Shown: positions 7,035-49,828 of the stretch, piece by piece
Layout: every line of letters begins with the position of its first letter
Position numbering within the stretch: position 1 is the first letter of the stretch
Assembly (NCBI GenBank): GCA_026874595.1
Contig: CM049307.1
Span: 81,010,643-81,074,642 of the forward strand
DNA length: 64,000 nucleotides
DNA from: Sipunculus nudus
Lineage: Eukaryota > Annelida > Sipuncula > Golfingiida > Sipunculidae
Reading direction: 5' to 3'
Notes under the pieces: model-generated
Told to the model about the DNA's origin: nothing
Databases searched by the model: none
The model's input: the letters and a program-made list of their open reading frames with translations, nothing else
Translations under genes and position numbers: made by a program

Positions 7035-7781
7035 TCAGCACGAGCAGGCACAGCTTGTAATTATTGGATAGCGGATCTGAATCCAGCGGCAAGCTTTAGA
7101 TTTACGACAATGCCACCACAGTAAAGTCTTAGTACTTGAGTCGCTCACTTTGCACGACATCCCTGGCGGAACCGAACACGATCGTCTGCTGTAGCAACTT
7201 CCTTCGCGTATCCACCGCGGCCAGAACCTCAATCCCAAATCCCGCCATTTATAAAGCACAGGGCAATAACTATACGCCCAAAGATAAAGTTGTATTTTCC
7301 GTCGCGCGTGGCGGCTGATTTTACTCCGCAGACGACGACTGTCGTACATATTTACCGTAAACAATCCACGAAACGCATCCGGCATTTGCCTGCGGCGGAA
7401 AGCCCGTCCATTCTTAAAATGATACACTAATGTCCCGTTAGGGTGTAAGAGACCTTCCAATGGCCGCACGGTAGACATAAATGTTGGATCATAATGTTTA
7501 CCAAGTATCGTTCTTAGCGTTACTGGGTCTAAGTCCTTCACACCAGGCAATAAGTGTTTATCTGTTGGGTATTTAGGTGGTCTGACCGGTAACTCATCTG
7601 AGGGGGACGGCCTTATGTCTCTGAACCTCGGGGGTAATTTCGCACGGAACTGCATTTTAAACAAAGTCGGGTCTACCTCGTGGAGTTCTCTGCTGGTGAC
7701 GGGCTTTAAACATACTATCAACAGTGCTACAAGTCCTGCGAGGCACAAGCGATGAGCTGCGATAGTCCTGCAAGTCTCCAT
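7035..7781 (-). CDS. noggin: Noggin homologue, secreted BMP antagonist (single exon, complete)
   Basis: A 248-residue protein encoded by one exon. A hydrophobic signal peptide covers about residues 5-30. The N-terminal region has the family pattern LRTILGKHYDPTFMS, in the segment that in Noggin clips over the BMP surface. A basic cluster at about 149-164 matches the position of the heparan-sulfate-binding stretch. The C-terminal domain begins at Cys173 with CPVLYKWRDLG.RFWPR, continues GSCYSRRSCSVPPGM, and ends at the last residue with CACSC. Nine cysteines (173, 196, 202, 210, 225, 231, 244, 246, 248) fit the Noggin cystine knot. The length is close to vertebrate Noggin (about 230), and vertebrate Noggin genes are also single-exon. 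The start ATG lies in GCCATGG, a strong Kozak context. Noggin is secreted and sequesters BMPs in axial patterning. The assignment is based on motif recognition without a database search and is very secure. Confidence 0.96.
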   Translation of the reverse strand: METCRTIAAHRLCLAGLVALLIVCLKPVTSRELHEVDPTLFKMQFRAKLPPRFRDIRPSPSDELPVRPPKYPTDKHLLPGVKDLDPVTLRTILGKHYDPTFMSTVRPLEGLLHPNGTLVYHFKNGRAFRRRQMPDAFRGLFTVNMYDSRRLRSKISRHARRKIQLYLWAYSYCPVLYKWRDLGLRFWPRWIREGSCYSRRSCSVPPGMSCKVSDSSTKTLLWWHCRKSKACRWIQIRYPIITSCACSC

Positions 7782-7881
7782 GGCTATCTTTGTTAAAAAT
7801 TACCTTAATAAAACTTTATCACAAATCCCAATATAAATCCAACCTCACTATTCCTCCTATGTTGCAGTATGACCGACGATC

Positions 7882-15186: not shown

Positions 15187-15428
15187 CTATGGTGCGCCTG
15201 CGCCCGACATTGTCACTTCCTTCGTGCTGTTGTTAAAGTAGAGTGGATTATCCATAGTGTCCATTTGTGAGTCCTTCTCTTTCGACTTTGTACGGCGAAT
15301 ATACCTGATCACGAAGGCAGCGACAATGGTCCCAAACACCAGAGCACCGACGATACCGATTCCAATGTAGGCCCCGGTCGATAAACCAGTGAGACCCGCG
15401 GAGACCGCCCCCTCACAATCGTTGCATA
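15187..15428 (-). CDS. Kringle gene exon 10: transmembrane helix and NPLY tail
   Basis: Final coding exon, acceptor TCCCTCAG, stop TAG. It encodes a CNDC pair, then the hydrophobic helix AYIGIGIVGALVFGTIVAAF, a basic stop-transfer RYIRRTKSKEK, and a tail with DNPLYFNNS. NPLY fits the NPxY consensus for PTB and clathrin-adaptor binding. With the signal peptide this sets a type I topology. Confidence 0.9.
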
Positions 15429-18400
15429 CTGAGGGAAAATACGTATATCTGTATAATAACTGAAGGTGGTGGTTCTAAGTTATCACGAAACTGCACTATG
15501 GCCACGCCTCTAGAATATCCTAAAGTCTTTGTGTTTAAGTGTCAGGAACGATTCTAATTGTCTCCTAAGGGAGGGAGTTTTCTATGTTTGCCCTATAAGT
15601 CATGAGACATTTGACATTATTTCGCGAATGGTCTATCGTAGTGCTATCTATCAGGAACTACCCGAATCATATGGAAAGTCAAAGCCGCATTGGCCTGTTC
15701 CAACGCAGAATTGCCTCTAAGCAGAAGCAAACCCGTCTCCAGAGTGTTACCTTTGAACATTTGGTAAATGTATTGGAGATATAAAGAGGGTAAGAATTTG
15801 TTCAAAATAAATACTTAATCTAAAGAGTAGACTGTAAAGGGAATTAATAAAAACAACCGATTTCTGTTGATTTTCTAATAAAAATATACAATGGAAATGT
15901 GTAATGAAGTAATATGGGAATGTAATGATATATTTATATTTACCAGAAATGTAGATATTATACTTATTTTCCATGTGAAATAACATTTAAATGCACCAAA
16001 GAATAAGATCAAACGTTCACCCATGGTTAGCATTGAGAGGCGTCAACCAGAGGCGTCCCTTGTAAATACTACTTCATGACTCCAGTTACATATTTATCCT
16101 TAAAGCTATCATTTCCCCAAAGAAATTGTTTCAACAAGAAAGATTTCCTTTTCAAATTATCCTATATGCATGAATCGCAATTTCCGTGACCAACTCATAT
16201 TTTTAAATGAAATTAAACTTTGAGTAATCCTGCAAAAACTAGTCCGTTTCATCCCCTCATGTCCGCCTGTTTTTTTTTTTTTTTTTGCTATGAAAATTCT
16301 TTTTAGTTACATTTCACGGGAAACAATTCTATTGTAGAATATAGGATTAAATAACCTAATTTTCACCAAAATAAATAAATACCTACCTTACACCTTATTT
16401 ACGAAACAGAATTATTTGGAAATATGAGAAATCAGTCTACATTTTACAACATATCTGACCACTTATGGCGGTCAAGGTCATTGCATGGTCACATGCAAAA
16501 ACAGCCTCAATTGACAGCTGCTGATTGGATGATGTCATGTAAACACTCTAAAAAATATAACCAGCTAAAACAAAGATGGCTACTCATATGGCGACACATC
16601 ATATCTGCCAGATCATTGTGAAGCGACTGAAAATTGTGAAACATAAATTTGGGATTTATTGTACTATTCTTAATTGGCATATTAGGTTGTCACTTTCATA
16701 TGTAGTTTCCTAGGAAATTATTGAAAAATATAAACTTATAAGAAAATTATCTTAAAAAAACAGGTGGAAAGCAGGTGGTGAAACGGACTAAGGTTGCATT
16801 ACAGAGGTAATTGCAGTTACTTATACATTTACACGTCGGAAATAGTTTCGCGCTTCTCGTTGACGATGGATTCTTAATTTTAAAAATTCAAAGACAGATT
16901 CAAAGACCCACAGCATAGAAAGACAAAAAAGGCTCTCTTGCGGTGAACAGCTCTTTTGAATTAAACGTACATACTTTATAAATTGGCCGAGCTTCATTGA
17001 TCGCGGGGCTATTGCATAAATCTAGTGCTGAAATTGACAATGAAACCGACAAGCACCGACAATGAACTCGCACCGGTAACAAAACATTGTGAAGTCATAG
17101 AGCCCCAGCCGGCTGTGATATCATACCATTTTACATTTATTTAATTGTTTTTATCCATTGCCAGTGGGCTAGAACATGTTCGGTCCATAAAAAATATATT
17201 GTTTTTAATCGTGTATTGCCGCTATATTGGCCTTAATAAAATAATTAAAAGTATATAAATATAAACTATGCTGATGAAACAGCTGTTACTTTCAATCCTT
17301 GGCAATATGAGGACAATAGACTTTTTTTTGTTTCTTCGATATCTGTGTTTGATTCACACTGACCAGTTTATCGTCAGAATGCTTTAAATATATAGAAAGT
17401 ACTAACGGACTACTTACTTTACACATTTCATCTGAACATCCAGACCAGGGAACAAAATTCAAGGTTTGCAGAGAGCAGAAGATTTTACAGTGGCGACACA
17501 GGTAGATACCAATGTTCAAGTGGCTCGGGGTGTTGATGGTTGATATATACAGCAAGATTAGCCGGTTGTATACGAAAGACAACGCAGGCGCGGATAGTGA
17601 AATACCTGGGACTTGGTTTTGTACAGAAGCGCCAAGGCGCCATTGCAAATTTTCACGTGATAACAAACGAAACCTGGTCACTAGCGTTCTTTTGTAAATA
17701 AAGAAGTGTTTGGCAACAGCCAGAATTATCTTCATTGAAATCTTATTGGCTAAAGAATGCTCTTTAAAACATAAAATAGACAATTCAACCTCTACTTTCA
17801 GACCTGTTGTAATTTTTTCTGTATATCCATTAAATTTAGCAGATAAATTTCGAAGTGACTATTACTTAACCCTCGAGGGCGCGTGGTTTTACGTTTTACT
17901 ATGAACAAATTATATCCTGGAATGCTTATGCTACTTAATGCGTATACTTAAATAACACTAAAATAATAGTGGCTGTAGAGAAATCACGGAGATACCGAAT
18001 GTTTATGGGACCAAGGTTGTAATATTGATACATGGGATAAATAGACAGTTTTTTTCTGGAAATACAACACAGGCGCCGGGAGTAAAACGAGCAAGAAACT
18101 TCCAACATGAAAGAACACAGTGGCGCCAGCACATATTTTAACTTCTGGAATATCTGCGACTCTTACATAACGTAAAATATAACAAAACTTCACGTGTTGA
18201 GTACTACAATGTTACCGACGTTAATTATCGTTTACTGATAGTGTATGGAGGCAATGAACACTTGTACCATGTATTTACACAGACATGTACTTAAGCGCAG
18301 AAGAAAAACAGTATATCTTGGGACCCGGGAGCTGTCAGCGCACAGGGAATTTCCTTTAACTTCATTGTAAAATGACGTTTATTAATGTTAGAGAACTGGC

Positions 18401-21400
18401 ATATTACCAGACTGCTGCGTTATTAATTTCTCTGCCCTGTTTATTGTAACTGAAGAATATTTGGGGAAAATATGATAAACGAAACCACATTTTTCATACT
18501 AGACAGTCTTTATCTTCCTTATATGAGGAGGAAAGTTTTCATCTGAAGACGTGATTCAGAATACAAATCAATTTGCAAAATAAAATTGCATTGACGTTTT
18601 TCAATATATAACATTTAATTCGATAAGCTTTTTTTATGTAAAGTTATACTACAGACATTGAAGTCTACAAAAACCTGGTTAGCAAAGATAATAACCAAAA
18701 GTAAGAAAATTCAAACCTGTTGTCAACTCCGACTTGGTTGATCTTCCAGGGTCACTTCCGGCGCGTGGCGTCATGCTTTGCGAAGGTGACGTCACGTTAT
18801 CAGCTGTCTTTTCCCCGGGGCTGCTGTGATGTGACCTTGTGGTCGATTCTGGTGTATGTGTTGTGGACCTGCTTGTTAACGGAAGTGAACCGGGGCTACC
18901 TGGAAGAATTATTTCTACATTATCAATCAAAGACACTCGGATTTTAATTAGGTATATGGTCGCCCTGTAAAAATATTTTAATTCTGTCACTAGATACTGT
19001 AGTCCATGCCAATTTACCATAAGTGTAAAAATAAAACACCTATGAACTAGATTATTCATATATGTGTGAAATATCTTTCAGATCGTTCAATATCATTCTG
19101 AACTGATAAGCCCAACAGAAAGCGTATATGTAAATGTGCGTGTATACCTTAAAAATCACCAGAGGAGCAATTTTCACGAAAAGTGACTGCGTGATCTCTT
19201 GGCTAAATTACGTCAAACCAGCGGGGTGGCACTCAGACTGGGTTTATTTTTGCATGCTGTATCCAAGCAATTATACGCTCGGTTTGAAGCGATATTTTAC
19301 GCATATAGCCACAAACGCATACTTAATCAAAAGTTTTAAGCTTAGCCCTTTAAAAACAGTGCATACACAATCACCAATTGCATACACAAAGACAGATTTT
19401 TACTAGCCATATTTTCGACAAAACATGTAAACTAATCGTAACAAATGTTCGGGTCCGCTACATTTATAAAGAAAGATCATTTTTACTGCTACCTCAATGA
19501 AAATTGTAAAATTGTCTTTCTTTGGTCCAATGTTGGAATCTGTTTCAGTAACAAAACATCTTTTATTATTCCAAGTCCGTGGCAGCCACGATTTTACAGG
19601 CCTTGATTTATAAAAAAAATGACCAATGCAATTTAACCAATCAGATGACTCGCTATACGTTGCTGCCGGAGCACACCTGGTGCTAGTTCTCAAACAAACG
19701 ATTAGCATTTCAAGTAGGACATCGACAATTTGACCAGTCAAATAAAAGCCATATAAACCGTTCCCGTTTCTAGGGCATGTGTTCTTGTTCAGACGGCGTG
19801 TGAGGTTTGTATTGTTTGAATATTGTTCTTTGATTTGATTGGCAGCTTTCATTTCGACCCGAAAACTTGCGGCTTGTTCCCACTTCAGAGCGGGTGGCTG
19901 AATCAAGGTCTGTGAAAGCGTAGGTGGTATGAAGATAAACAAATTGTTCGCGGAGCACAAATTCTAAGGGTTACTGGTGTTCTGAGAAAATTTATTCGGA
20001 CTTACTACTACTGACACCTGGCGACGAGGAACCCGGTGTAGAGGTAGGTGTGGTCGGAGGCACAACCGGCGTGCTTGGTGACGGCGTTGCTAGAATCAAA
20101 CAGGAGATGGTTCAGTAAGCGCCTGTATACGCCCATCACAGTTTGTAAGATATTTTTTAAATCTTTTAACGTTTTGGTAATTTTGTAGATATAAAGGTAT
20201 GACTAAGCTGTGGTGAGATTTAAAGATTTATTGTTACATGCATGCCGTCTCTCCTGTCCTTTCATTTCATTAATTCATTCATTTAACATGTAACGAAAGA
20301 GATTATGTAGAAATATTAAATACTTCCCAAAGCGAACTCAGTCATTTTATCCATGGCTCATAAAGCTATTCCCCTTTATATGTTTTTCATGTTGTCCCTT
20401 TTTATATTTACGTTTAAATAGCTTCATATGGTTATGGAAATATAATTTTTAAAATTTACTTTAAAACCTAACAATACATCTATCATCTCTGGCAGCCACG
20501 CCTTTACAGGCCTTGATTCATAAAAATGACCAATGCAATTTAACCAATCAGATGACTCGCTATACGTTGCTGCCGGAGCACACCTGGTGCTAGTTCTTAA
20601 ACAAACGATTAGCAATACATGTAGGACATCGAGAATTTGACCAGTCAAATAAAAGCCATATAAACCGTTCCTGTTTCTGGGGCATGTGTTCTTGTTCAGA
20701 CGGCGTGTGAGGTTTGTATTGTTTGAATATTGTTCTTTGATTTGATTGGCAGCTTTCATTTCGACCCGAAAACTTGCGGCTTGTTCCCACTTCAGAGCGG
20801 GTGGCTGAATCAAGGTCTGTGAAAGCGTAGGTGGTATGAAGATAAACAAATTGTTCTCGGAGCACAAATTCTAAGGGTTACTGGTGTTCTGAGAAAATTT
20901 ATTCGGACTTACTACTACTGACACCTGGCGACGAGGAACCCGGTGTAGAGGTAGGTGTGGTCGGAGGCACAACCGGCGTGCTTGGTGACGGCGTTGCTAG
21001 AATCAAACAGGAGATGGTTCAGTAAGTACCTGTATACGACCATCACAGTTTGTAAGATATTTTTTAAATCTTTTAACGTTTTGGTAATTTTGTAGATATA
21101 AAGGTATTACTAAGTTGTGGTGAGATTTAAAGATTTATTGTTACATGCATGCCGTCTCTCCTGTCCTTTCATTTCATTAATTCATTCATTTAACATGTAA
21201 CGAAAGAGATTATGTAGAAATATTAAATACTTCCCAAAGCGAACTCAGTCATTTTATCCATGGCTCATGCAGTTATTCCCCATTATATGTTTCCCATGTT
21301 GACCCTTTTTATATTTACATTTAAAAAGCTTCATATGGTTATGGGAATATAATTTTTTAAATTTTCTTTAAAAACCTAACAATACCATACCATCTGTGGC

Positions 21401-24400
21401 AGCCACGCCTTTACAGGCCTTGATTCATAACAAATGAGCAATGCAATTTAACCAATCAGATGACTCGCTATACGCTGCTGTCGGAGCACGCCTGGTGCTA
21501 GTTCTGCACCTAACGTTTAGCATTGCAGGTAGGGAATTGAGGATTTTACCAGTCAAATAAAAGCCATATAAACCGTTTTCGTTTCTTGTGCATGTGTTCT
21601 TGTTTAGACGGCGTGTGAGGATTGTGTTGGTTGAATATTGTTCTTTAATTTGATTGGCAGCTTTAGTTTCCACCCGAACACTTGTGGCTTGTTCATAAAT
21701 CAATCAGAGCGGCTTGCTGAATCAAGGTCTGTGAAAGAGAAGCTTTCTCAAACTTGGTAGTATAAAGATAAACAAATTGTTCTCGGAGCACAAATTCTTA
21801 GTGTTACTGGTGTTCTGAGAAAACTTAGTCGGACTTACTACTAATGGCACCTTGCGACGAGGAACCCGGTGTTGAGGTAGGTGTGGTTGGAGGCACAACC
21901 GGCGTGCTTGGTGATGGTGTTGCTAGAACGATACAGAAGATGGGTCAGCAAGCGCCTGTACACGACCATTGCAGTTTGTAAGAGATCATTAAAATTATTC
22001 TAACATTTCGGTAATTTTTATAGGGAAAAAGGGACCAGGAAGCTTTAGAGAGATTTACAGATTTATTGTTACATGCATGCCGTATCCCTTGTCCTATCGT
22101 TTCATTCATTCATTCATTCGTTCGTTCATTCATTAATTTATCATGTAACGAGAGAGGTTATGTAGAAATATTAAATAATTTACAAAGTGTACTCAGTCAT
22201 TTTGTCCATGAATAACGCAGTTATTCGCTATTATACGCTTCCCATGTTGACCCTATCTATATTTACGTTTAAAGTGCTTCATATGGTTATAGCAATACAA
22301 TATTAAAAATTTTCTTTAGAAACTTTAATAACCTTGTTCAGGCTTTCATGATACAAGCCAAAAGGAATGAACATCATTTGGGTTTAGATCCTTCAAACTT
22401 AGCAAACAAGGGCCAAAATACTTTATGTCCCAAAAAGCCTCTACTCAGAACATGTCTTCATCCCGAAAACCTGTATTTTCCGTTGTTTTAAATACACTTT
22501 ATAAATAATGAAAACAGGAAATAATTTTTGCTTTATACTTACTCTGGCCTTGTGGAGTTACTGAAGATGACGTAATGATTGCCGATGACGTCATACTTGG
22601 CGTAGCGGTGGTTGTTGTCGCAGCTGCTGTCGTTGTGTTCGGCAACTGAGGTGGAACAAAATCTGAAAGTAACACATGTAAATAAAATAAAATATGATAT
22701 ATGTAAACTCAAGGGACAATGTACGTTTAACATTTTTTTCTTGCGGGTATGAATAAAAACCAAAAGACATATATATTTGGAGATAGTTTGCACATGAAAC
22801 TGTTCAATCGCACAGGTACCGTTCCTCCTATATACTCGCTTAGCAATGCTTCGGACCTTAACACCTAGCAACAGCTCTAAGATAAAAAAATTCTATCAGT
22901 CCAGAAATATCAAATGGTCACTGAGAATTTCCATAGATATTGTGCCAACTTAATGAGAAAGATTATATTGCAGGTTTCTTGAATTTGATACTTTTCCGAA
23001 AAAGAAAGTCTGATTTACTACAGGAAATTGCTTAATTTTAATATATGTATATATATCTCCATTGCCTCGGTGGACAAGATGAGAGTAACCTTCTCTGGGC
23101 AGTATGGTTAAAAGAAAATGGCGGTTTAGCCTGTTTGATACTTCGTCCCAGCATGGAGACTGATTTCCTCCGCGCTCCGTGTGGTGTCCAATATCACATA
23201 CTGTGGATGGCTTCATATTCGCGTGGTTATTTTTCGCGTTTTTCACATTTTCCTTGTTTCGCGAGGATTCCATTTTCGCGACCTTGGTATGCGGAAACTT
23301 ACACATAGTGCATACATATCCATTATCAGATTGATTATTTAATATGCGCGCTTCATCATAACAATTTTCGAGATGATTTTCTTTCGCTAATATCGCGAAT
23401 TTTAAACATTCGCGAATAAAGAGCAAACCACAGTATACACCCATAGAGTGTTGGTGCTGAAACTGCTGCATCAGTTTGAGTTCCTACGAAACATATTCCC
23501 TGGTCCCTTTAACGCTTGTGTGGGGGTAAGACAGGGCTGTGAACGTATGTGGCTGATGTTTTCCTCAGATTGCTAAAAATTATACCGTGACCCAGTATCG
23601 TTAAAACTACCGAAAAAACACAAGAATCACGAAACAGGCTCATTGGTGAGGCTAGTATACATGGGGGTATACATGGGTATACATGGGGGCCCGATCGTAA
23701 CTGCACACTTCGTAAAAGATTTTGCAAAAGTTTGACCCAGATTCGTTTTAACAACATACATTACAGGAGTTTTAGAGTGCAAGTCGTAAAGAGTTATGAT
23801 CCGACATATCATACCACACTAACAAGACGTGTTAGAATTTATTGCAAAGCGTGTAAAAGTAGTAGAGAAGCGGATCCGGGGGTCCGGAACCGTTTTTCAG
23901 CCACCGCAACCTTTTAAAGGGTTTCAGATCAAATTTTGCGGCCTGGAACCCCCCCCCCCCCCCTTATTTAAGGTTTTGTTATTAGTCCTACTGGGCTGGA
24001 TCCCTCCTTTTCCTAAATCCTGTATCTGCCCCTGTAGTCGTCCCACCAAACGGCGCAATCGTTTTTTTTTTTGGGGGGGGGGGGGATTTTAATCAGAAAT
24101 GCTAATACTTCTGTTCATTTTGCCTACATAACATTATGAGCACGTTGGAAACAAAAAGTGAAAAATTTGATTCATAGTTGATTTGACTTGACTTTGTATA
24201 TAAATATCCGAAAATAGGTGGAAGCTCCTTGGTAGGACGGAATACAATCTCAGCATTATGTCAGCTACAAAAATACCAAGACTTAAACCGACACTTACAA
24301 CAATACTGTACGTCGCAAAGGTCCCACTCGACATCAGGATCTGTCGTGTAGCACCAAGTGCCGTCAGGGTCCACGTCGTCAGGGTTTCGGCAGTAGTTCT

Positions 24401-27400
24401 CGGCTGCGGTGAGACTCTCGTCCGGGTACATGGATACGTGATTGAAGCTATGTCCATGTGGTGACTGCGAGTCCCAACGTTGACAGGTCACGTGATCACG
24501 GGTTTCCGCCTTTTGACCCATGTAATAAAACGTGCCATCTTCCGGGATACAATCTGAAGCAAAACATATACCCAGTATAGTTCTTGAACTGGGATACTCA
24601 TGCACAACAATTCTATCTTCTATCGGGGGATTTGCATAAGGGTGTTTCTCAACAACCTTTTTTTCGTAAATCAGTGCAGGCGAGCGATTTTTAACCCTTT
24701 TGCTATGTGTTTTCGATAAAATTTAGCATGACCAGATTAAAAAGCGTAAAAGCACAACATTACATACGGAAATTTTATCGAAATGTTCTTTTGTGCACAA
24801 GGTACCATCGAGTTTGGAAAACATACTATTCAGGGTAGAGTCTGTGTAGGCATCTATGGCCCGAAATCCCAACCTGCCGACCACTACCTACATTCACCAA
24901 GTATAATTAGTAGCTGGAAAGCAGTGATTTTCCACACTCCTCTGTCTGTCCTTTTGTGTGTGTGTTTTTTTTTTTCGTTCCTCTGTATGTGCAGTTACGA
25001 TAAAAAGGTCGGGAATGAATTTCCATGAAATATGAAGAACTTGCTCTAGCTGCAAGGAAGATCATATATTAAATATATCCGTAGTAAAATGCGATGCAGG
25101 ATCGGGTTTTAATAGTATATATTAATAGTTTAATGAACTTTTTGTTGAGATGGTTTTCACAGAAGAGAGAAGGGTATTTTGGTTATCTGGACAAACAACA
25201 ACGGATGGTGGAGGTTTCATCTAGTAAAACGGGTCTGCGGTAAAAGAGTACATTTTCCCGGAACATGCTCTGGCCTCTTACCACAATAAGGAACATCACA
25301 GTGTTCCCATCGTTTATCAGGGTCGGTAGTGTAGCACCAAGGACCTTCGTTCCACGAAGTATCGGGATTACGGCAGTGGTTCTCGGCCAGGGTCAGGTTA
25401 CCCTCGGGGAACTGGTCGTCCGTGTACCAGGCGTGCTGGTGAGGTTCCTGGGAGTCCCACCGCTGACACCCACGCCCGCTCTTGGTGACGTTCATCGGAC
25501 CATCGTACTCCTGGCCTCCCCGTGTTTGCCGACAGTCTGAACAAAAAATAATAACTTCGCATATCCGAATCTCATTATCCGAAATCTATAACTACTACTA
25601 CTACTATAGCACCACTACTACAACTTCTACAAATACCACTACTACTACACCTAATATTACTGCTACTACTACTACTTCTACTATTACTTCTACTGCTACT
25701 ACTACTACCACTGATAATAATGATAATGATAATATCACAATTTGAATAAGAATACATACCATATGTCCGAATCTAGGAATAACTGTCACTACTACTTACT
25801 GCTATTGTTACTTCTACCACATCTACTATTAATAATAAGAAGAAAGAAATAAGGAGAATATATAGTAAAAACGTAATAGATCATCTATCTTTTAAGGAAT
25901 GAAATATTTATCATTAAAATTTATCATCACTATAAACCTTTTGTATTAAGGTTCACTAGGAGCTGAACAAAAATATCCGTTAAACTCAGACACATACATA
26001 AACCTTTCTATTTATGGCACTTTATGTCAATACTGATATTTTAGAATAAATGTACTGGCGTAGAGGAAGCCACTGCTGATCTTTCAGTATTGACGTTATG
26101 TGTTCACGAATCTTTTTTCCTAATTATAAACTTCGCTCTGGCTTGTCAACCCTTCTCTTTTATTCGTTTATTTGTTTATTTTTTTATAGGCACATTCTCC
26201 ATTGAATGAGGGAGAATGTATATGTATAGCAAAGGATTTTTTAAAGGATGTTATATGATTATATCCATGACGAAAGTTATGTTTTCATCAATGTTGGCCA
26301 TTTGCTTTTTCCTATCCGTCCTTCTACCTGTTTGTTTGTCTGTTTGTAAAGCTCTGTGCACTACGTCTACCGCTACAAACTCATAGATGGATTTCTAGAA
26401 TAAAAGTAGGAGGCTTTGGGCAGATAACTTAACCCAATTGTGATTTTTTTTTTCAAAATTCAAAAGTGAATGGATGATCCTTTTGTGTATCTATTAATTT
26501 TCTTCCGATGTAAATAATTTCCAACTGCGCTGACGGAGGATAATTTGCCGCCACCAGAAGGGTATGCTTCTATCCCCGTTTATGTGTGTTTGGGTGAATG
26601 TTTGTTCACAATATAACTTACGTAATCATGAAAATTATTTCATGAAATTATCAGGGCATTTTGGGAATGGGCCATGAAAGAATTAATTAGATTTTCGTGT
26701 GTGATCCGGGACATGTCCAGGATTCATGAACGTCATCAAGGAATTTTGAGGCAACCACCAGCTATGCACAAATGAACCTTGGAATATGGGTCGATTAAGT
26801 GAATGGCGGAGGCTTGCATTCATTAGAATGCGGATTTCTAGTTACTGTTGTAATAACACGTAGAGCTGGTGCCAAAGAATAATTGACTAGATAAAGAATC
26901 AATCTATTTGTTCTTTAATGGTTTTCCACTTATTGTGTGTTTTTAGAAGACTTCTCAGTTTTATCATTTTACTCATTTTACTCAACAATTCTTGTTTGTT
27001 TCATTTTTTAAGACCGCGAACAGAGTGAAAATGCTAAAAGTATGCCCGGGGGTGACAGATGAGCCTTTTATTGTCATAATACTTATGGCTACATCGGGAA
27101 TTTCTTGCTGCAATAGATCATTAAAGAAAACATACAGATCAAAGTAGAAAAATTCAAAAGGAAACACCAATTAATATTGCTATAATAATAGTTCTTTTAG
27201 GCTTAATTTAGAAAAGTAATTGCCCAAGCCGCCGTATATCTGTGCGAAAGCACGCACCATTATAGACACACGAAGGTGTAAAATCATCGATTAACATGAC
27301 GATGCACGATCCCTCTGCCGCGCTGTGTAATTATCACCGCAGTTCAAGCACAGATCATGACGTCAGCGGAAGACAAGAGAAAGGGGCAGGAATTTGTTAA

Positions 27401-27895
27401 GGGCGTTATATAAGCAACCGCAGAAAGCATAAAAATAGAATAAAGTCAATGTCCTGGGGCGACTATGAAAACAAAATCCCACATGTGTCCTCGGAAATTC
27501 CGTCTGATGCTGGCTTCAAAGAAACGTTTATTGAAAGCTTCATGGTTAAAATGGACAATGGTTCCTTTTTTTAGAAATAAATCAAACAAAAACATTTCCT
27601 ATAGCATTTTAGACAATTGATCTGTGGTAAACGACTTCACGTGGGGGCGTTGATTTTCCATGCGTCAGTTTTGTTATTGCATGAGTGGCTATACTGTACG
27701 ACGTGTGAACAGAGACAGGCTTCGTGTTATTGCATTTACTAAACTGGAAGACAATGATTAATCTTTAAAAAAGGCAATATATGACTGCCATAAACAGTCT
27801 TCTTCATGAAAGGACGGTACGACCTCTGATACATTTTAAGTTTTATTGGTTATTTTGTAATAATTATTAGTAACTTCATTAAAAGGATGATGAAA

Positions 27896-27944
<49 letters not shown>

Positions 27945-30900
27945 AATTGATTTATTAATTAATTTAAATATTTTGTTGTATTATTAATTATATTATGACA
28001 TTGCTGCCGTACTTTTTGTATAGTCCATTAAGATGAAATTGCTGTAGTCATATTCTCTGATACTTAAAAAAAACAGTGTTAAATATGTTGTAGCTATACC
28101 AATGATGGATTCTTGTTTTATAATTTTCCTTAAAAAATCGTTCGGTAATGCATAATTATATGGTGAACTCTGTCTTTTTATTGTAAAATATAGCTTAAGA
28201 CCTTGTCCGAATAGCTTATGCAAAAGTTTTACTATATTGTTTCATAATAGATTACTTTTCGAAGGGGTTACGCTAGTGGTGGGCCGATCATCGAGTTTTT
28301 TCGAAAGTCAGTCAGTTTGCTGCAACTTTCAAGCGCTCGATTATGAAAGGCAACTATCGATTACATCATACTCATGATTGTTTTTACCAGAATGTCTTTA
28401 AGTTATAGGCAAAAATTACTCTTCCATTTTTTACAACATTCCACGCTTCATATAATGAGTTTGTGTTCCCAAATAACCTCCGTTTATAACTGAGTATATA
28501 TATGACACGATAGACGAGAGAACGGAGGACCTATTAAACCTCCGTGAACTGGCAGGGAGCTGCAGAATTAGCGCAGAGTTTTCTAACGAGATGTTCATTG
28601 CAAATTATGGGCGGTGTGGAGTTAAAATGCTCCATAATGCTCCAGGTCTATGCCAATTTTGCAAGATTCTCTTAGAAATAATCTCCTCAACTGATGTCAG
28701 GTGCCGCTGCCGCATGAGTAATTGTATTTTTAGCTTTCAATTTCTTATTTTTTAATTTTTACCATAAAATATATGGGCCCGTAATTTTTCTGGCAGGCCT
28801 GTGAAACCAGTATACATATCGGCAGTCATCATAATTCCTATCAAATGAAAGTCCTGATAGTGAAGTTAAAATGATACGCGGGAGTATTCATGAGGGCCAG
28901 CAAGTAGATGTCCTAGACTGTGGTTTAATTGATTACTTTAATTAATTAAAATGAAAATTTGAATAGCATATCTTAGTGATAAAAGGAAAATATAAAAAAG
29001 GCAAAAACTTCTTTTTGTAAGGTAGAATTACTAAGACATGCGGGCTGGGTTAAGAGAGTACAGTTTCACAGATAATTGCAAATTTCTTTATATTTGTCTG
29101 AACCGATTAATAATCGATCATCGATCGGTTTGCCCAAACCGACTCCCACCACTAGGTTACGCTGATTGGTTAGGTTTTCTTGTCATAATTTGCGATATTA
29201 ATGAACAGCCAAGTCATCAGCTTAAGGACGCAAACAACGGAGCCAGGGAACAAAGGGTGGCGTCTAAAAAAGCTACTCGTTTCATTTATATTACAGTCTG
29301 GCGAATCCTGTATTATAGTTAAGAATTACACTTTAAACACAAAGTATATTGATTTTCTATGAATAAACAGCAGTTCTGGAACAATGAGATAAGATGCCTG
29401 TGTACAGCGATTTAATAAAAAAAACCTAGAGAATTACTTTTGCATGAATGGGGTAAGGTACAGCATACCGTACTGTGTCATGTTGTCTGGATCTTAGATT
29501 CTACATGTGGTATTTAAATGACGGAGCGATGCAAGGTCACACCAGGGTCAAAGGCTGATGCAAACAGCAGTGATATGTAAGGGGTTGACCTCTGGTGGAG
29601 ATGGAGTGAATTACCTGACTGAATAATAATGTACGTGTAATGCGTATGCAAAACTGAGAGCTTACAGTAGGCAATAGGCATGTTAAAAATGTGTTTTTCT
29701 GTCTTGAAAACACCTTGTAACCAACACGGTACACTAGCTCCTTATGCAGCGGTCGCATTCCATTCCTGTGATCAATTTTATTCGAACCACAGATCCCACG
29801 TACAGTTCCTCATGTAAACCGCCACCAGGAGGAGCCATATATTTTGGCGCCGAACCAAACGTGGCTTTTTTGGCGATGACTTGACCGACACACGGAAATG
29901 TTCATATTGATCGAAATATTTTTAATTTGGCTTTTATTAATTGATATCGCCATGAGCGCCATAGGCCTAGCTACTCGGGACAGCGCCACAACTCACGGCT
30001 CCTCCGTGTGGCGGTCCACGACAAACGTTTTCCCGTTGGAACAATGTGTCGAATGAAATGCATGTAGAGTGTACCTACAAGTAAACCGTCAATGTTTTAT
30101 ACTTCTTTTCAAAGAAGAGCGAGCAAAAGAAGAGTAAAATATCTAACTTTGTCGGGCGAAGGTAACAAATATGGCGTCTCACCACACTTTGGTATTTCGC
30201 AGTATTCCCATTCTTCATTTGGGTCCGTGGTGTAACACCAGGGACCAGTCTTTCCGGTTCCGGCTGGATTCCGACAATAGTTACTGGCGCCCTCTAGAGT
30301 AGAATCTGGGAAGTACTCTGAGCTCGTGTAAGGATGGTTGTGTGGATACTGATTGGCCCATGATTGACACGTGACACCATTCCTCGTCATATTCTGTCCT
30401 CCCATATACTCCGCGCCATGATCTGTAAACCGGCAAGACTCCCAAGAAACGACACCTGTAAAAGTTGTTCAGCACACAACATAAAATGACTGTGGCTTAA
30501 ATATAAAATCTAAAGAAGAGTTTGAATACAGTTTACGTTTTTTTTGTGAGTAGGGCTAAGTGCAACATTTATACAATAAAATCGCAAAATACGCATATGA
30601 ATTAAGAATCGATTTTACGTATTGCTAGAAAAGTCTTAGAGTTTTTGGGATTTGGGATTCCTCGTCTTCCCGTGTTTATTAAGCTGTTTTTCTGTAGGCT
30701 ACTGGATGATGTATCATCCATTGAATAGGTGATTTAACATGCAAACATAACTCATATATGATATAGAGTCGTTAAAACTTAATATAAAACTTGAGTGATA
30801 CTAGTAATTACCGTGAATTCAATCTGTGAACAGATGTCTGATATAAATCTGGTACATTACGTTACAGAGTGTCGTCAAGAGCACTAAAGCCATACAGATT

Positions 30901-31265
30901 TTTAATTTATGAATAGGGACCAATTAAATATAGAATATATGGACTTTCATAAACTAACATAATCTTTTTTATGTTTTGTATGATATTATCTTTTTTTTAT
31001 TTTATTTTGGGGTCTAGCAAATTCCCCTTTATGACTGTGGGCCCTGAGCAAGTGCCCCATTAACTCAATATAGGCATAAACCGACCATGAGAATATTCAA
31101 TTTCAGGAGTTAACCGGGTTCAGACAATCGCCAAACTCTGCAGCCCGTTCCCACTTTTGCAGATTTAGATGATAAGATAAATAAAATTTTATCTAATATA
31201 TATATAATTTTATTATTTATCTTACCAGAGGAGAAGAAGAAGATGAGGATTAAACGAGCATCCAT
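15187..31265 (-). CDS. Three-kringle, mucin-like stalk, single-pass membrane protein (whole gene, 10 coding exons)
   Basis: Joining ten exons with consensus GT-AG ends gives an uninterrupted 1,620-nt frame of 539 residues. Signal peptide about 1-18. Kringles at 21-104, 106-189 and 191-274 each have six cysteines and the C.NP...WCYTTDP core. A Ser/Thr/Pro-rich stalk covers 275-459, a Cys pair 461/464, a transmembrane helix about 479-500, a basic stop-transfer (RYIRR) follows, and a 39-residue tail carries NPLY at 520-523. All internal junctions are phase 1. Kringles bind proteins, often through lysines, and NPxY motifs recruit PTB-domain and endocytic adaptors, so a cell-surface receptor or adhesion role is inferred. 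It is not plasminogen, HGF, Kremen, ROR or PIK3IP1, because it has no protease, CUB/WSC or kinase region and PIK3IP1 has one kringle. Orthology is unknown. Exons are listed separately. Confidence 0.9.
15429..18716 (-). other. Last intron of the kringle gene
   Basis: A 3.3-kb intron with no supported exon. It contains a TA-flanked MITE (16242-16788). A 163-codon open frame at 17292-17783 has a donor-like end but the wrong phase to join this gene. Confidence 0.6.
16242..16788. mobile_element. MITE with ~40-bp terminal inverted repeats and TA target site
   Basis: The left end GTCCGTTTCATCCCCTCATG and the right end (read on the minus strand) GTCCGTTTCACCACCTGCTT align as inverted repeats that both run into a poly-T. 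Each side is flanked by TA, as in Tc1/mariner-type elements. The 547-bp element has no transposase. Confidence 0.7.
18717..18899 (-). CDS. Kringle gene exon 9: membrane-proximal Ser/Thr-rich stalk
   Basis: Phase 1-1 exon of 183 nt, acceptor TTCCAG and donor G|GTTTGA (weaker than the others). Residues 399-459 are rich in Ser, Thr and Pro (for example SRSTTHTPESTTRS) with no cysteines. An NVT sequon is present. Confidence 0.82.
19577..20488 (-). repeat. Tandem segmental duplication unit 1 (contains exon 8)
   Basis: First of three ~0.91-kb head-to-tail units. It matches unit 2 almost base for base across both intron and exon. Boundaries are estimated from where the similarity restarts (GGCAGCCACG). 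Confidence 0.85.
20006..20089 (-). CDS. Kringle gene exon 8: stalk repeat, copy 1
   Basis: Phase 1-1 exon of 84 nt, acceptor TTCTAG and donor A|GTAAGT. Pro/Thr/Ser make up most of the 28 residues. Being symmetric, it can be skipped or duplicated without breaking the frame. Confidence 0.85.
20489..21397 (-). repeat. Tandem segmental duplication unit 2 (contains exon 7)
   Basis: Nearly identical to unit 1, so this copy step is recent. Exon-to-exon spacing from unit 1 is 907 bp. Confidence 0.85.
20913..20996 (-). CDS. Kringle gene exon 7: stalk repeat, copy 2
   Basis: Phase 1-1 exon of 84 nt. The protein is identical to that of exon 8 (ends SSSPGVSS). Acceptor TTCTAG and donor A|GTAAGT are identical to the neighbouring copy. 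Confidence 0.85.
21398..22330 (-). repeat. Tandem segmental duplication unit 3 (contains exon 6)
   Basis: Same order of landmarks as units 1 and 2 but with many substitutions and small indels. Exon-to-exon spacing from unit 2 is 926 bp. It is the oldest branch of the array. Confidence 0.8.
21839..21922 (-). CDS. Kringle gene exon 6: stalk repeat, copy 3 of the genomic triplication
   Basis: Phase 1-1 exon of 84 nt adding 28 residues (TTPSPSTPVVPPTTPTSTPG, then SSSQGAIS). It is the most diverged of three near-identical exons and comes first in the transcript. Confidence 0.85.
22543..22662 (-). CDS. Kringle gene exon 5: Thr/Ser-rich stalk start
   Basis: Phase 1-1 exon of 120 nt, acceptor CTTTCAG and donor A|GTAAGT. 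It encodes residues 275-314, starting YFVPPQLPNTTTAAATTTT and then many Ser/Thr. The composition fits an O-glycosylated mucin-like stem. No cysteine is present. Confidence 0.85.
23197..23437. mobile_element. TTCGCGA-rich MITE, copy A
   Basis: The left end TACTGTGGATGGCTTCATATTCGCG and the right end CGCGAATAAAGAGCAAACCACAGTA form terminal inverted repeats. The interior carries several CGCGAA/TTCGCG words. It shares both ends with the copy at 45955-46391 and lies between kringle gene exons 4 and 5. Confidence 0.7.
23860..24085. repeat. GGATCC...GGGGG-type degenerate interspersed repeat
   Basis: Contains GGATCCGGGGGTCC, a C run and a G run, and a second TGGATCCCTCC. The words match 37465-37620, suggesting a dispersed element. 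It has no coding content. Confidence 0.4.
24299..24553 (-). CDS. Kringle gene exon 4: kringle 3
   Basis: Phase 1-1 exon of 255 nt, the same length as exon 3, with acceptor GCTTCAG... and donor T|GTAAGT. Residues 190-274 form a six-cysteine kringle with QRWDSQSPHGH, YCRNPDDVDPDGTWCYTTDP split around the core, and CDVQYC. The acidic NPDDVDPD stretch makes this the best candidate of the three for lysine binding (inference from the Asp pair used by plasminogen-type kringles). Equal length and the shared QRWDSQ motif point to duplication with exon 3. Confidence 0.93.
25282..25536 (-). CDS. Kringle gene exon 3: kringle 2
   Basis: Phase 1-1 exon of 255 nt, acceptor TTGTTCAG and donor G|GTAAG. Residues 105-189 hold a complete six-cysteine kringle with QRWDSQEPH, HCRNPD and GPWCYTTDP. 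NPD is kept but the next residues are TSWNE rather than an Asp-x-Asp pair. A likely N-glycosylation site (NLTL) lies inside. Confidence 0.93.
25588..25735. repeat. (ACT)n trinucleotide repeat next to kringle 2
   Basis: An imperfect ACT/ACC tract beginning about 50 bp on the intron side of the exon 3 acceptor. Confidence 0.9.
25800..28265. other. Kringle gene intron 2, proximal part
   Basis: AT-rich intron sequence with no supported exon. It includes an (ATT)n tract at 27896-27942. Confidence 0.6.
27896..27942. repeat. (ATT)n microsatellite
   Basis: Pure trinucleotide tract. Confidence 0.95.
28274..29154. mobile_element. Non-autonomous hAT-like element with 8-bp target duplication
   Basis: Ends TAGTGGTGGG...CCCACCACTA are perfect 10-bp inverted repeats, extended by GCCGATCATCGA-like and ATCGATCGG-like subterminal words. 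Identical 8-bp sequences GGTTACGC flank it at 28266-28273 and 29155-29162, the hallmark of hAT transposition. It is 881 bp with no transposase frame and lies in intron 2 of the kringle gene. Confidence 0.88.
29818..30015. repeat. GC-rich inverted-repeat segment
   Basis: ACCGCCACCAGGAGGAGCC at 29818-29836 and its near-perfect inverse GGCTCCTCCGTGTGGCGGT at 29997-30015 bound a GC-rich 198-bp block about 170 bp downstream of kringle exon 2. It may be a small MITE. Confidence 0.5.
30183..30455 (-). CDS. Kringle gene exon 2: kringle 1
   Basis: Phase 1-1 exon of 273 nt, acceptor TTTACAG and donor G|GTGAG. It carries the end of the signal peptide and a full kringle (residues 21-104) with six cysteines, a CQSW core, YCRNP and GPWCYTTDP. 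The NPD triplet typical of lysine-binding kringles reads NPA here and the following residues are not acidic, so classical lysine binding is doubtful (inference). Confidence 0.93.
31226..31265 (-). CDS. Kringle gene exon 1: start codon and signal peptide
   Basis: Encodes MDARLILIFFFSS and ends G|GTAAG (phase 1). With the next exon the leader continues GVVSW before the first kringle cysteine. It is a short hydrophobic signal peptide with a charged N-end. The ATG is 85 bp below a TATA-like box. Confidence 0.88.
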
Positions 31266-31349: not shown

Positions 31350-31355
31350 CTTATA
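31350..31355 (-). promoter_or_regulatory. TATA-like box of the kringle gene
   Basis: TATAAG on the minus strand, 85 bp before the ATG, which leaves a 5' UTR of about 50-55 nt. Inferred from position. Confidence 0.45.
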
Positions 31356-32288
31356 CAGTATCCATATTCATCTGTCAGCTCGTGTTACAGCTACCTGTGC
31401 TGAAACATTACCGGGGTTCATTAAGACGAGTTACTCTTGACCCCGGAGTGTAACTTGACCTCGTGCAACAAAGTGACAAATCAAAACCCCAAAACAGGGG
31501 CGGAGGGTTTTGGAGGGGTTTTCCGGGACGAGATCCGCCTGCTCTTAACCAACGACCTTTTTTTAGACAATTTTTATGCATGACACCCGTTGACCTCTCC
31601 CTGCAAAAAAAAATCCTTGTTCCGCGCCTGATTTATTTATATATTTCATATCGAATATATAAAAATTATTCTCTGAATATAAAGGGATGATTACATTGAC
31701 CATCCCCATCAGCCTTGCTAGAAAATGGGAATGGGAGATATATTCCCCTATCCCCCTGTATTGACGCCCCTGGGAGGGGGGGGGGGGTAAACGGGAAGGC
31801 GATTCATGGCAGTGGCTTTAAAATAGAACTGAGCACTTGGAATTTTACATTTGACAAATTTAATTGCAGAACACTGCATTTTCTCACCAGGGAAAGGTAA
31901 TATCCTATGTTATATTTATTTGCGATCCAAATAAGCCTGGGTCAATAAATAATACTTTTGATCATGGTAACTATGAATTAACAATCATGTAACTGTTACC
32001 TTAGTATAAGCTGAAGGGTGCTGAGTTTACATCCTGATAATTATTCCATCGACACCTACCAGGAAATTTTCCCAGTGGACCCCTGCCCACCAAAAGCTAC
32101 TCCGACGGGTTCGCGTTGTAAGATAGGCAAGAGAATTAACCTATTCCTTCTCCATTTGAGTCAACATTTCAGTTTTAATTATCTTTCTTTTTATATTGTT
32201 CATTTCTCGTTGCACGGGGGAGGATTGGTCAATGGTGGGTATCCATTGGTCTGTTCTAGTACAGTACTAGTATGTACGGTTTTACACC

Positions 32289-32560
32289 ATATGGGTATTA
32301 ATGAAATAAGTCTGTTTCCCTGTGCCTCATTCACCAAAGCAAAAGCACTTATATAATTATGTGTTACAAGAACAGTAGTTTATGTTAATCATATTATATT
32401 CATTTTTCATAATATTAATAACGATAATAAAATAATAATATGAGTGATTATGATTACCATTGTGACTATTATCCGTGACATGTGCAACGGGTATCTCTGT
32501 CCATTGGACGCACACATTTGTAAACAGTTTTGAAGATACTAAATCATATCAATATTATGT
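32289..32560. repeat. Direct duplication, copy 1
   Basis: About 270 bp nearly identical to copy 2, starting CATATGGGTATTAATGAAAT. The offset between copies is about 618 bp. No coding content. Confidence 0.85.
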
Positions 32561-32906
32561 TTGTCAAACAGCCTGCAAGATGAGTTTGAATCTTTGTTTT
32601 ACTAAAGAAAGGTAATGACTTGTGCCCATGGAGACTGTGTTTCAGTTTTGGTTGTGAGCACACATGTATACTATTGTGTTAATTCGTCATTCTTAGCATA
32701 ATATTGAGATTATGGGCTGTTTACCACAATATGAATGCCTCCTGATGCAAGACCACTGGGATACATTTCTTTATATTACTTGTATCACGACTCGGGTAGG
32801 CTTATCAGCCCAATTATCCGATTGCCTACAGTGTCGGGTTGTCACGGCTATTGGGAAATGCACTCCTAAAATTGTTTAGAATTTAAAAGTTATTTAAAAG
32901 ATTTTC

Positions 32907-33178
32907 ATATGGGTATTGATGAAATAGGTCTGTTTCCCTGTGCCTCATTCACCAAAGCAAAAGCACTTATATAATTATGTGTTACAAGAACAGTAGTTTA
33001 TGTTAATCATATTATATTCATTTTTCATAATATTAATAACGATAATAAAATAATAATATGAGTGATTATGATTGCTATTGTGATTGCTATCCGTGACATG
33101 TGCATTAGGTGATCTCTGTCCATTGGACGCACACATTGGTAAACAGTTTTGAAGATACTAAATCATATCAATATTATT
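32907..33178. repeat. Direct duplication, copy 2
   Basis: Matches copy 1 with only scattered substitutions, for example ATTGATGAAAT in place of ATTAATGAAAT. Confidence 0.85.

Positions 33179-39407: not shown

Positions 39408-49828
<10,421 letters not shown>

Follow-up and report, generated by a model that had tools for sequence, protein, structure and literature searches.

Most known kringles belong to secreted proteins of the clotting and growth-factor kinds, and a few receptors carry a single copy. The locus analysed here, a 64,000-nucleotide stretch of the Sipunculus nudus genome (the window), raises the question of what a protein would do that carries three kringles ahead of a mucin-like stalk, a single membrane helix and a cytoplasmic NPLY motif, and whether it stands alone in this genome.

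Gene model and protein architecture

An earlier note on this DNA had read a complete 539-residue frame with phase-consistent splice sites, and this was borne out. Joined in sequence, ten minus-strand exons (31265-15187) give 1620 bases, exactly 539 residues and a stop codon, and all nine introns are GT-AG with phase 1 at each junction. Exon 1 (31226..31265) carries the start codon and a short hydrophobic signal sequence (MDARLILIFFFSS) with a donor score of 5.1, and TATAAG lies 90 bases upstream at 31355 (a pattern match only). Kringles 1, 2 and 3 are encoded by exon 2 (30183..30455, with a weak acceptor), exon 3 (25282..25536) and exon 4 (24299..24553), respectively, each identified using Pfam and aligned to kringles of plasminogen. 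The stalk is built from exon 5 (22543..22662, Thr/Ser/Pro-rich by composition), an 84-base Pro/Thr/Ser cassette in exon 6 (21839..21922), further cassettes in exons 7 (20913..20996) and 8 (20006..20089), and the Ser/Thr-rich exon 9 (18717..18899), where donor and acceptor are both weak and form the weakest splice sites of the gene. Exon 10 (15187..15428) encodes the membrane helix, a basic flank and a 39-residue tail with MDNPLYFNN and the stop codon.

A scan of 20 kb on both strands for phase-1/phase-1 open exons recovered exon 3 alone in a stricter first pass. With relaxed thresholds it returned 22 candidates on the gene strand, namely the eight internal exons (ranks 1, 2, 5, 7, 8, 9, 10 and 20), seven boundary variants and seven unrelated candidates, together with four on the opposite strand; its weak splice sites put exon 9 in 20th place. 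Since the thresholds were relaxed after a first look, the scan serves as a consistency check and not as a blind test. The best unrelated candidate (17761-17606, minus strand), located in the last intron, has no similarity evidence and was not added to the gene. Profile search found no further kringle exon in the window (next match E 0.33). The gene is almost certainly real, and from splice sites and phase we infer that its ten exons are spliced together.

Pfam analysis of the joined protein found three kringles (PF00051, E 1.6e-63, 211 bits against a 34.3-bit cut-off) and no other family above cut-off, the three others reported up to E 1 all falling below it. Six cysteine columns are invariant in the alignment of the three kringles, and neighbouring kringles are spaced by one residue, from the last cysteine of one to the first of the next. 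The stalk (residues 276-462) is 66% Ser/Thr/Pro (123 of 187 residues) with a single cysteine near its end. The sole hydrophobic segment peaks at 2.49 in 19-residue Kyte-Doolittle windows starting at residues 481-482; RYIRRTKSK follows directly and the cytoplasmic tail ends TMDNPLYFNNSTKEVTMSGAGAP. NPxY appeared in 0.83% of 200,000 shuffles of the 39-residue tail, and the residue two before the asparagine is Met, where the classic FxNPxY has an aromatic residue. The architecture first read from the DNA, three kringles, a mucin-like stalk, one helix and an NPLY tail, was thus recovered in each part, and by this predicted architecture the product is very probably a multi-kringle surface protein. 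Matches of the tail-profile to solved chains were weak (best E 0.021), and matches of tail exons to Syndecan and ErbB helix models were rejected as below cut-off. Structure prediction for the kringle from three sequences did not succeed (mean pLDDT 40.8). Viral and prokaryote collections gave 37 and 16 pattern matches, respectively, with zero relatives among them.

Exons 6, 7 and 8 each lie in one of three tandem genomic units of ~907 bp (19580..22330, with manually placed outer limits), and the copies are spaced by 907, 908, 926, 928 and 948 bp. Between the units of exons 7 and 8 the exon is identical (84/84) and the remainder 95.9% alike. Most diverged is the exon 6 unit, which is 91.7% alike to that of exon 7 in the exon and 85.3% outside, and the seven exon changes comprise four third-position and three second-position changes. 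On small numbers, the stalk exon has changed somewhat less than the DNA around it, which is what coding sequence would show. The two units ~4% apart could perhaps be two alleles set in tandem by the assembly. A direct repeat of ~270 bp is also present at 32288-33177, its two copies 618-619 bp apart and 96-98% identical.

As to the neighbours, a minus-strand open frame at 7038-7799, 3' of the kringle gene and in the same orientation, matches Pfam Noggin (3.2e-62) and looks like a single-exon noggin. A BTB exon (42209-42451, minus strand, Pfam 1.2e-10) and a BACK-like frame slightly below cut-off (39411-39698, minus strand) possibly belong to one BTB-BACK gene. The minus-strand frame at 45310-45657 had no Pfam or PDB match; we take it to resemble a discoidin-like segment of FBXL4 or BTBD9.

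Kringle arrays, helix exons and NPxY tails elsewhere in the genome

The genome (1,426,538,692 bases, 153 contigs) was searched with a kringle profile and 150 of the 350 first-look candidates were scored. All 150 passed the curated cut-off, one with an internal stop, giving a lower bound of at least 150 kringle-coding stretches, most of which are clustered as judged by eye. Across the DNA scanned, window included, a phase-1 GT directly follows the last cysteine in 43 of 55 kringles. The window kringles are 47% alike to each other and 49.5% alike on average (best 62%) to those of an array on C9; two of the three fall among the C9 kringles in a tree (nearby supports 0.40 to 0.97), with kringle 1 elsewhere. 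By these comparisons, the window kringles seem to come from the common kringle pool of the genome.

The DNA on the 3' side was read for 14 kringle arrays, that of the window among them, and we judged a same-strand helix exon to be present in nine (the window, C9:28.89-28.95 Mb, C10:33.34, C10:39.15, C10:7.81, C10:24.74, C5:52.39, C17:4.52 and C15:50.59), three with NPxY and six without. None was seen 3' of C10:39.19 (8 kb read), C10:16.38 or C16:16.73 (10 kb each), the minus-strand array at C10:33.37-33.39 (16 kb) or the plus-strand array at C10:33.33. The frames lacking NPxY lie at L031 2149-2340 (C5), L032 8825-9211 (C17), L030 2419-2733 (C10), L034 9061-9480 (C15), C10:39148687-39149061 (L024) and L029 3440-3571 (C10). 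Their tails are unlike one another, and a single type of ectodomain may occur with many different tails.

The count of nine in 14 is weakened by a control comparing the density of helix frames in same-strand 3' flanks with that elsewhere. At a loose threshold there was no excess (1.05 per 10 kb in flanks versus 1.01 elsewhere); at a strict threshold, set after seeing the data, the flanks held 0.60 per 10 kb (8 hits in 133 strand-kb, at 8 of 14 arrays) versus 0.19 elsewhere (10 hits in 533). The C9 helix exon fails the basic-residue filter and is not among the eight strict flank hits. The six NPxY-less helix exons are therefore likely as a set, each individually unproven, and some may be chance. 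Because these six frames lack the motif, an NPxY tail is not general among array helix exons, though some tails may continue in later exons.

Over 333,307 bp, both strands, 21 NPxY matches occur in frames of at least 25 residues, and four of these are preceded, within 70 residues, by a hydrophobic stretch. Three of the four are same-strand exons 3' of kringle arrays: that of the window, C9:28954934-28955296 (NSFENPAY) and C10:33340281-33340508 (SSFNNPGY), the latter two separated from the nearest kringle of their array by ~1 to 2 kb and each with a possible phase-1 AG start. The fourth, antisense to the C5 array and without a basic flank, looks spurious. As the scanned DNA came from the surroundings of kringle arrays, and same-strand 3' flanks make up 133 of its 667 strand-kb (20%), three of four (two of three without the window) is suggestive and not overwhelming.

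A candidate signal exon (33349282) and six kringle frames precede the helix at the C10 locus, which is probably one six-kringle gene. The C9 array (C9:28890001-28960000) has 28 kringle frames, some partial, on one strand over 61 kb, followed by the helix and an SFENPAY tail, and could possibly be one giant kringle receptor. This array yielded neither a signal exon nor, close to its 3' end, any exon rich in S/T/P, and its protein may have no stalk. The joining of exons at both loci is taken from strand and nearness. Aligned with the window tail, the C9 and C10 tails share N, P, Y and ten further columns; identity among the three is 27-31%, mostly within the helix. Searched against the genome, the window tail exon matched itself (E 3.7e-47), then other places at 0.55 and 7.0, and recovered neither the C9 nor the C10 tail. 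The order of kringles, helix and NPxY thus recurs at three loci, and a shared origin of the tails finds no support in their identity or in the tail search.

This recurrence raises the interest of the window gene. At least 150 kringle-coding stretches, and three arrays with helix and NPxY, suggest that in this lineage the kringle became a module of general use for surface binding.

Proposed ligand binding and uptake, and competing explanations

Alignments to the kringles of plasminogen gave the lysine-site residues. In kringle 1 the acids that follow CRNP are lost (CRNPAGT) and the R71 position is E; kringle 2 retains the first acid and R71 and has lost the second acid; kringle 3 retains both acids, with E in place of R71. 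Only kringle 3 thus keeps both acids, and the other two lack an intact lysine pocket. Across the DNA scanned, window included, a loose pattern found an acid pair in 25 of the 55 kringles that span 70 or more profile positions. Plasminogen kringle 5 is our model for a preference for lysines inside chains. By analogy, kringle 3 may favour such lysines too, because it has the amine-holding acids without the basic carboxylate-holding residue.

On the observed kringles, stalk, helix and motif, we propose that the window protein would be a single-pass (type I) cell-surface receptor whose mucin-like stalk, presumably O-glycosylated, would hold the three kringles off the membrane. The ligand of the kringles would be a protein or a glycan, contacted most likely via kringle 3. 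The cytoplasmic MDNPLY would recruit PTB-domain adaptors of the Dab2/ARH/Numb class to clathrin pits, and bound ligand would be taken up through this adaptor-clathrin route. FxNPxY is described as binding the PTB domains of Dab2 and ARH (PMC3522622). The idea is favoured indirectly, because two of the 13 other arrays have a helix exon with NPxY and both have FxNPxY, the stronger form. The window gene would then belong to a recurring type, in which a helix exon lies 3' of an array of phase-1 kringle exons and, at no fewer than three loci, encodes an NPxY tail. We put the probability of a kringle-built endocytic receptor, with uptake via NPLY as its main role, at about 0.45, a tentative figure lowered from 0.50 because of the helix-frame density control.

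The main rival is adhesion or anchoring, in which the kringles would grip a lysine-rich secreted matrix, the stalk would lie in the glycocalyx and NPLY would engage talin-like FERM/PTB domains and the cytoskeleton instead of clathrin. NPLY is also found in integrin beta tails, which counts for this reading. So does the nearest published architecture, the flatworm protein Tmed-krg1, a proposed lysine binder whose RNAi gives a non-adhesive phenotype (PMC9229212). Against it, both lysine-site acids are kept in kringle 3 only, and Tmed-krg1 is likened by description only, its published description as available making no mention of an NPxY tail (PMC9229212). On balance we consider adhesion unlikely as the main role. 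Phosphotyrosine signalling is less probable again. Here, NPLYFN would be phosphorylated and read by a Shc-type PTB domain and, via Y-x-N, a Grb2-type SH2 domain. The tail, MDNPLYFNN, would suit this, NPxpY and pYxN being known adaptor motifs (a match of motif only); the C9 and C10 tails, however, read NPAYSAG and NPGYEDV, so Y-x-N is not common to them, and Pfam found no kinase domain in the window protein.

A role in immune recognition, as a receptor from a family that has expanded and is diversifying, with tandem kringles as variable binding surfaces, would fit the at least 150, mostly clustered (by eye), kringle-coding stretches, the tails that differ from locus to locus and the stalk exons in tandem units; we regard it as improbable, slightly more so than phosphotyrosine signalling. 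All of these readings presuppose a correctly joined gene. Introns of 4.6 and 3.3 kb, the weak splice sites of exon 9 and exon joining that is known here from sequence alone would also be compatible with a secreted kringle gene adjoining an unrelated mucin or membrane gene. The single strand, phase 1 at each junction, the recovery of the exons in the relaxed scan with few others on the gene strand, and the same order of kringles, helix and NPxY at two other loci all speak against such a mis-joined model, which we consider very unlikely. Endocytic uptake remains our preferred reading.

Comparison with known kringle proteins and endocytic receptors

The named kringle receptor families (ROR, Kremen, PIK3IP1) and plasminogen were excluded by their domains, in agreement with the earlier note, which had inferred a distinct kringle receptor. 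ROR and NRK join a kringle with an Ig/cysteine-rich domain and a tyrosine kinase (PMC2772990). They share with the window protein a kringle near a single membrane helix but Pfam found no tyrosine kinase, Ig or cysteine-rich domain in it. ROR is also disfavoured by the scores of two kringles against solved structures: kringle 1 scored 79.5 bits with the best single-kringle plasminogen chain and 69.6 with the best ROR, and kringle 3 scored 75.8 and 54.7 with the best such plasminogen chain and the best ROR, respectively. PIK3IP1 has one kringle, which is extracellular as in the window protein, with a transmembrane segment and a short tail. The tail of PIK3IP1 (TrIP) is reported to hold a segment resembling p85 inter-SH2 (PMC7520711). 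Pfam found no p85-like segment in the window protein or its tail exon. Kremen1 and Kremen2, likewise type I membrane kringle proteins, have WSC and CUB domains, both absent from the window protein (Pfam). The clathrin uptake signal of Kremen1 is given as DXXXLV (PMC3522622), whereas the window protein has NPxY.

By sequence, the nearest solved kringles are those of the plasminogen, HGF and apolipoprotein(a) group (plasminogen chain E 6e-94). These proteins are secreted, and plasminogen has a trypsin-like domain that is absent from the window protein (Pfam). Plasminogen-like proteases of lower chordates are described with two to three kringles and a trypsin domain (PMC6337849), and the annelid and mussel kringle proteins described in two papers are MAC/perforin-kringle proteins (PMC2762978, PMC4581086). 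No multi-kringle NPxY receptor was recognised among the papers listed by searches of the open-licence PMC literature; the main text of PMC12549020 lacks the word 'kringle', and in the available text of PMC6626399 it appears as one table entry.

The single-pass kringle proteins named in the earlier note have one kringle each, but one is not the limit for membrane kringle proteins. Tmed-krg1 of the flatworm Theama mediterranea has six kringles, is predicted to be membrane-bound and is expressed in the anchor cell; the authors propose that it binds lysines of a cohesive protein, report homologues in two other flatworms and state that the protein was not localised (PMC9229212). Alike to the window protein, by description only, are several tandem kringles outside and a predicted membrane segment. 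Unlike it, Tmed-krg1 has 1357 or 1367 residues (table versus text), six kringles and no predicted signal peptide, and a mucin stalk is not mentioned in its description as available (PMC9229212). Of the proposal of a distinct kringle receptor, the receptor-like architecture outside the named families therefore stands, and its uniqueness does not: the protein is probably one of several and has a precedent in Tmed-krg1.

In overall design, the window protein invites comparison with endocytic receptors of another module. Members of the LDL receptor/LRP family have a small Cys-rich repeated module, a stalk, one helix and a short tail with x-D-NPxY. The window protein likewise has a repeated binding module, a stalk, a helix and NPxY (MDNPLY), but its module is the kringle, and it has no LDLR class A, EGF or propeller match (Pfam, up to E 1). 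We propose that it may repeat the LDL-receptor design with the kringle as module. That an entire family of endocytic receptors arose in this lineage, with tandem kringles (3 to perhaps 28) substituting for LDLR-A repeats and NPxY serving for uptake, is a doubtful extension that the helix-frame density control made slightly less likely still; if correct, the family would be an independent counterpart of the LRPs.
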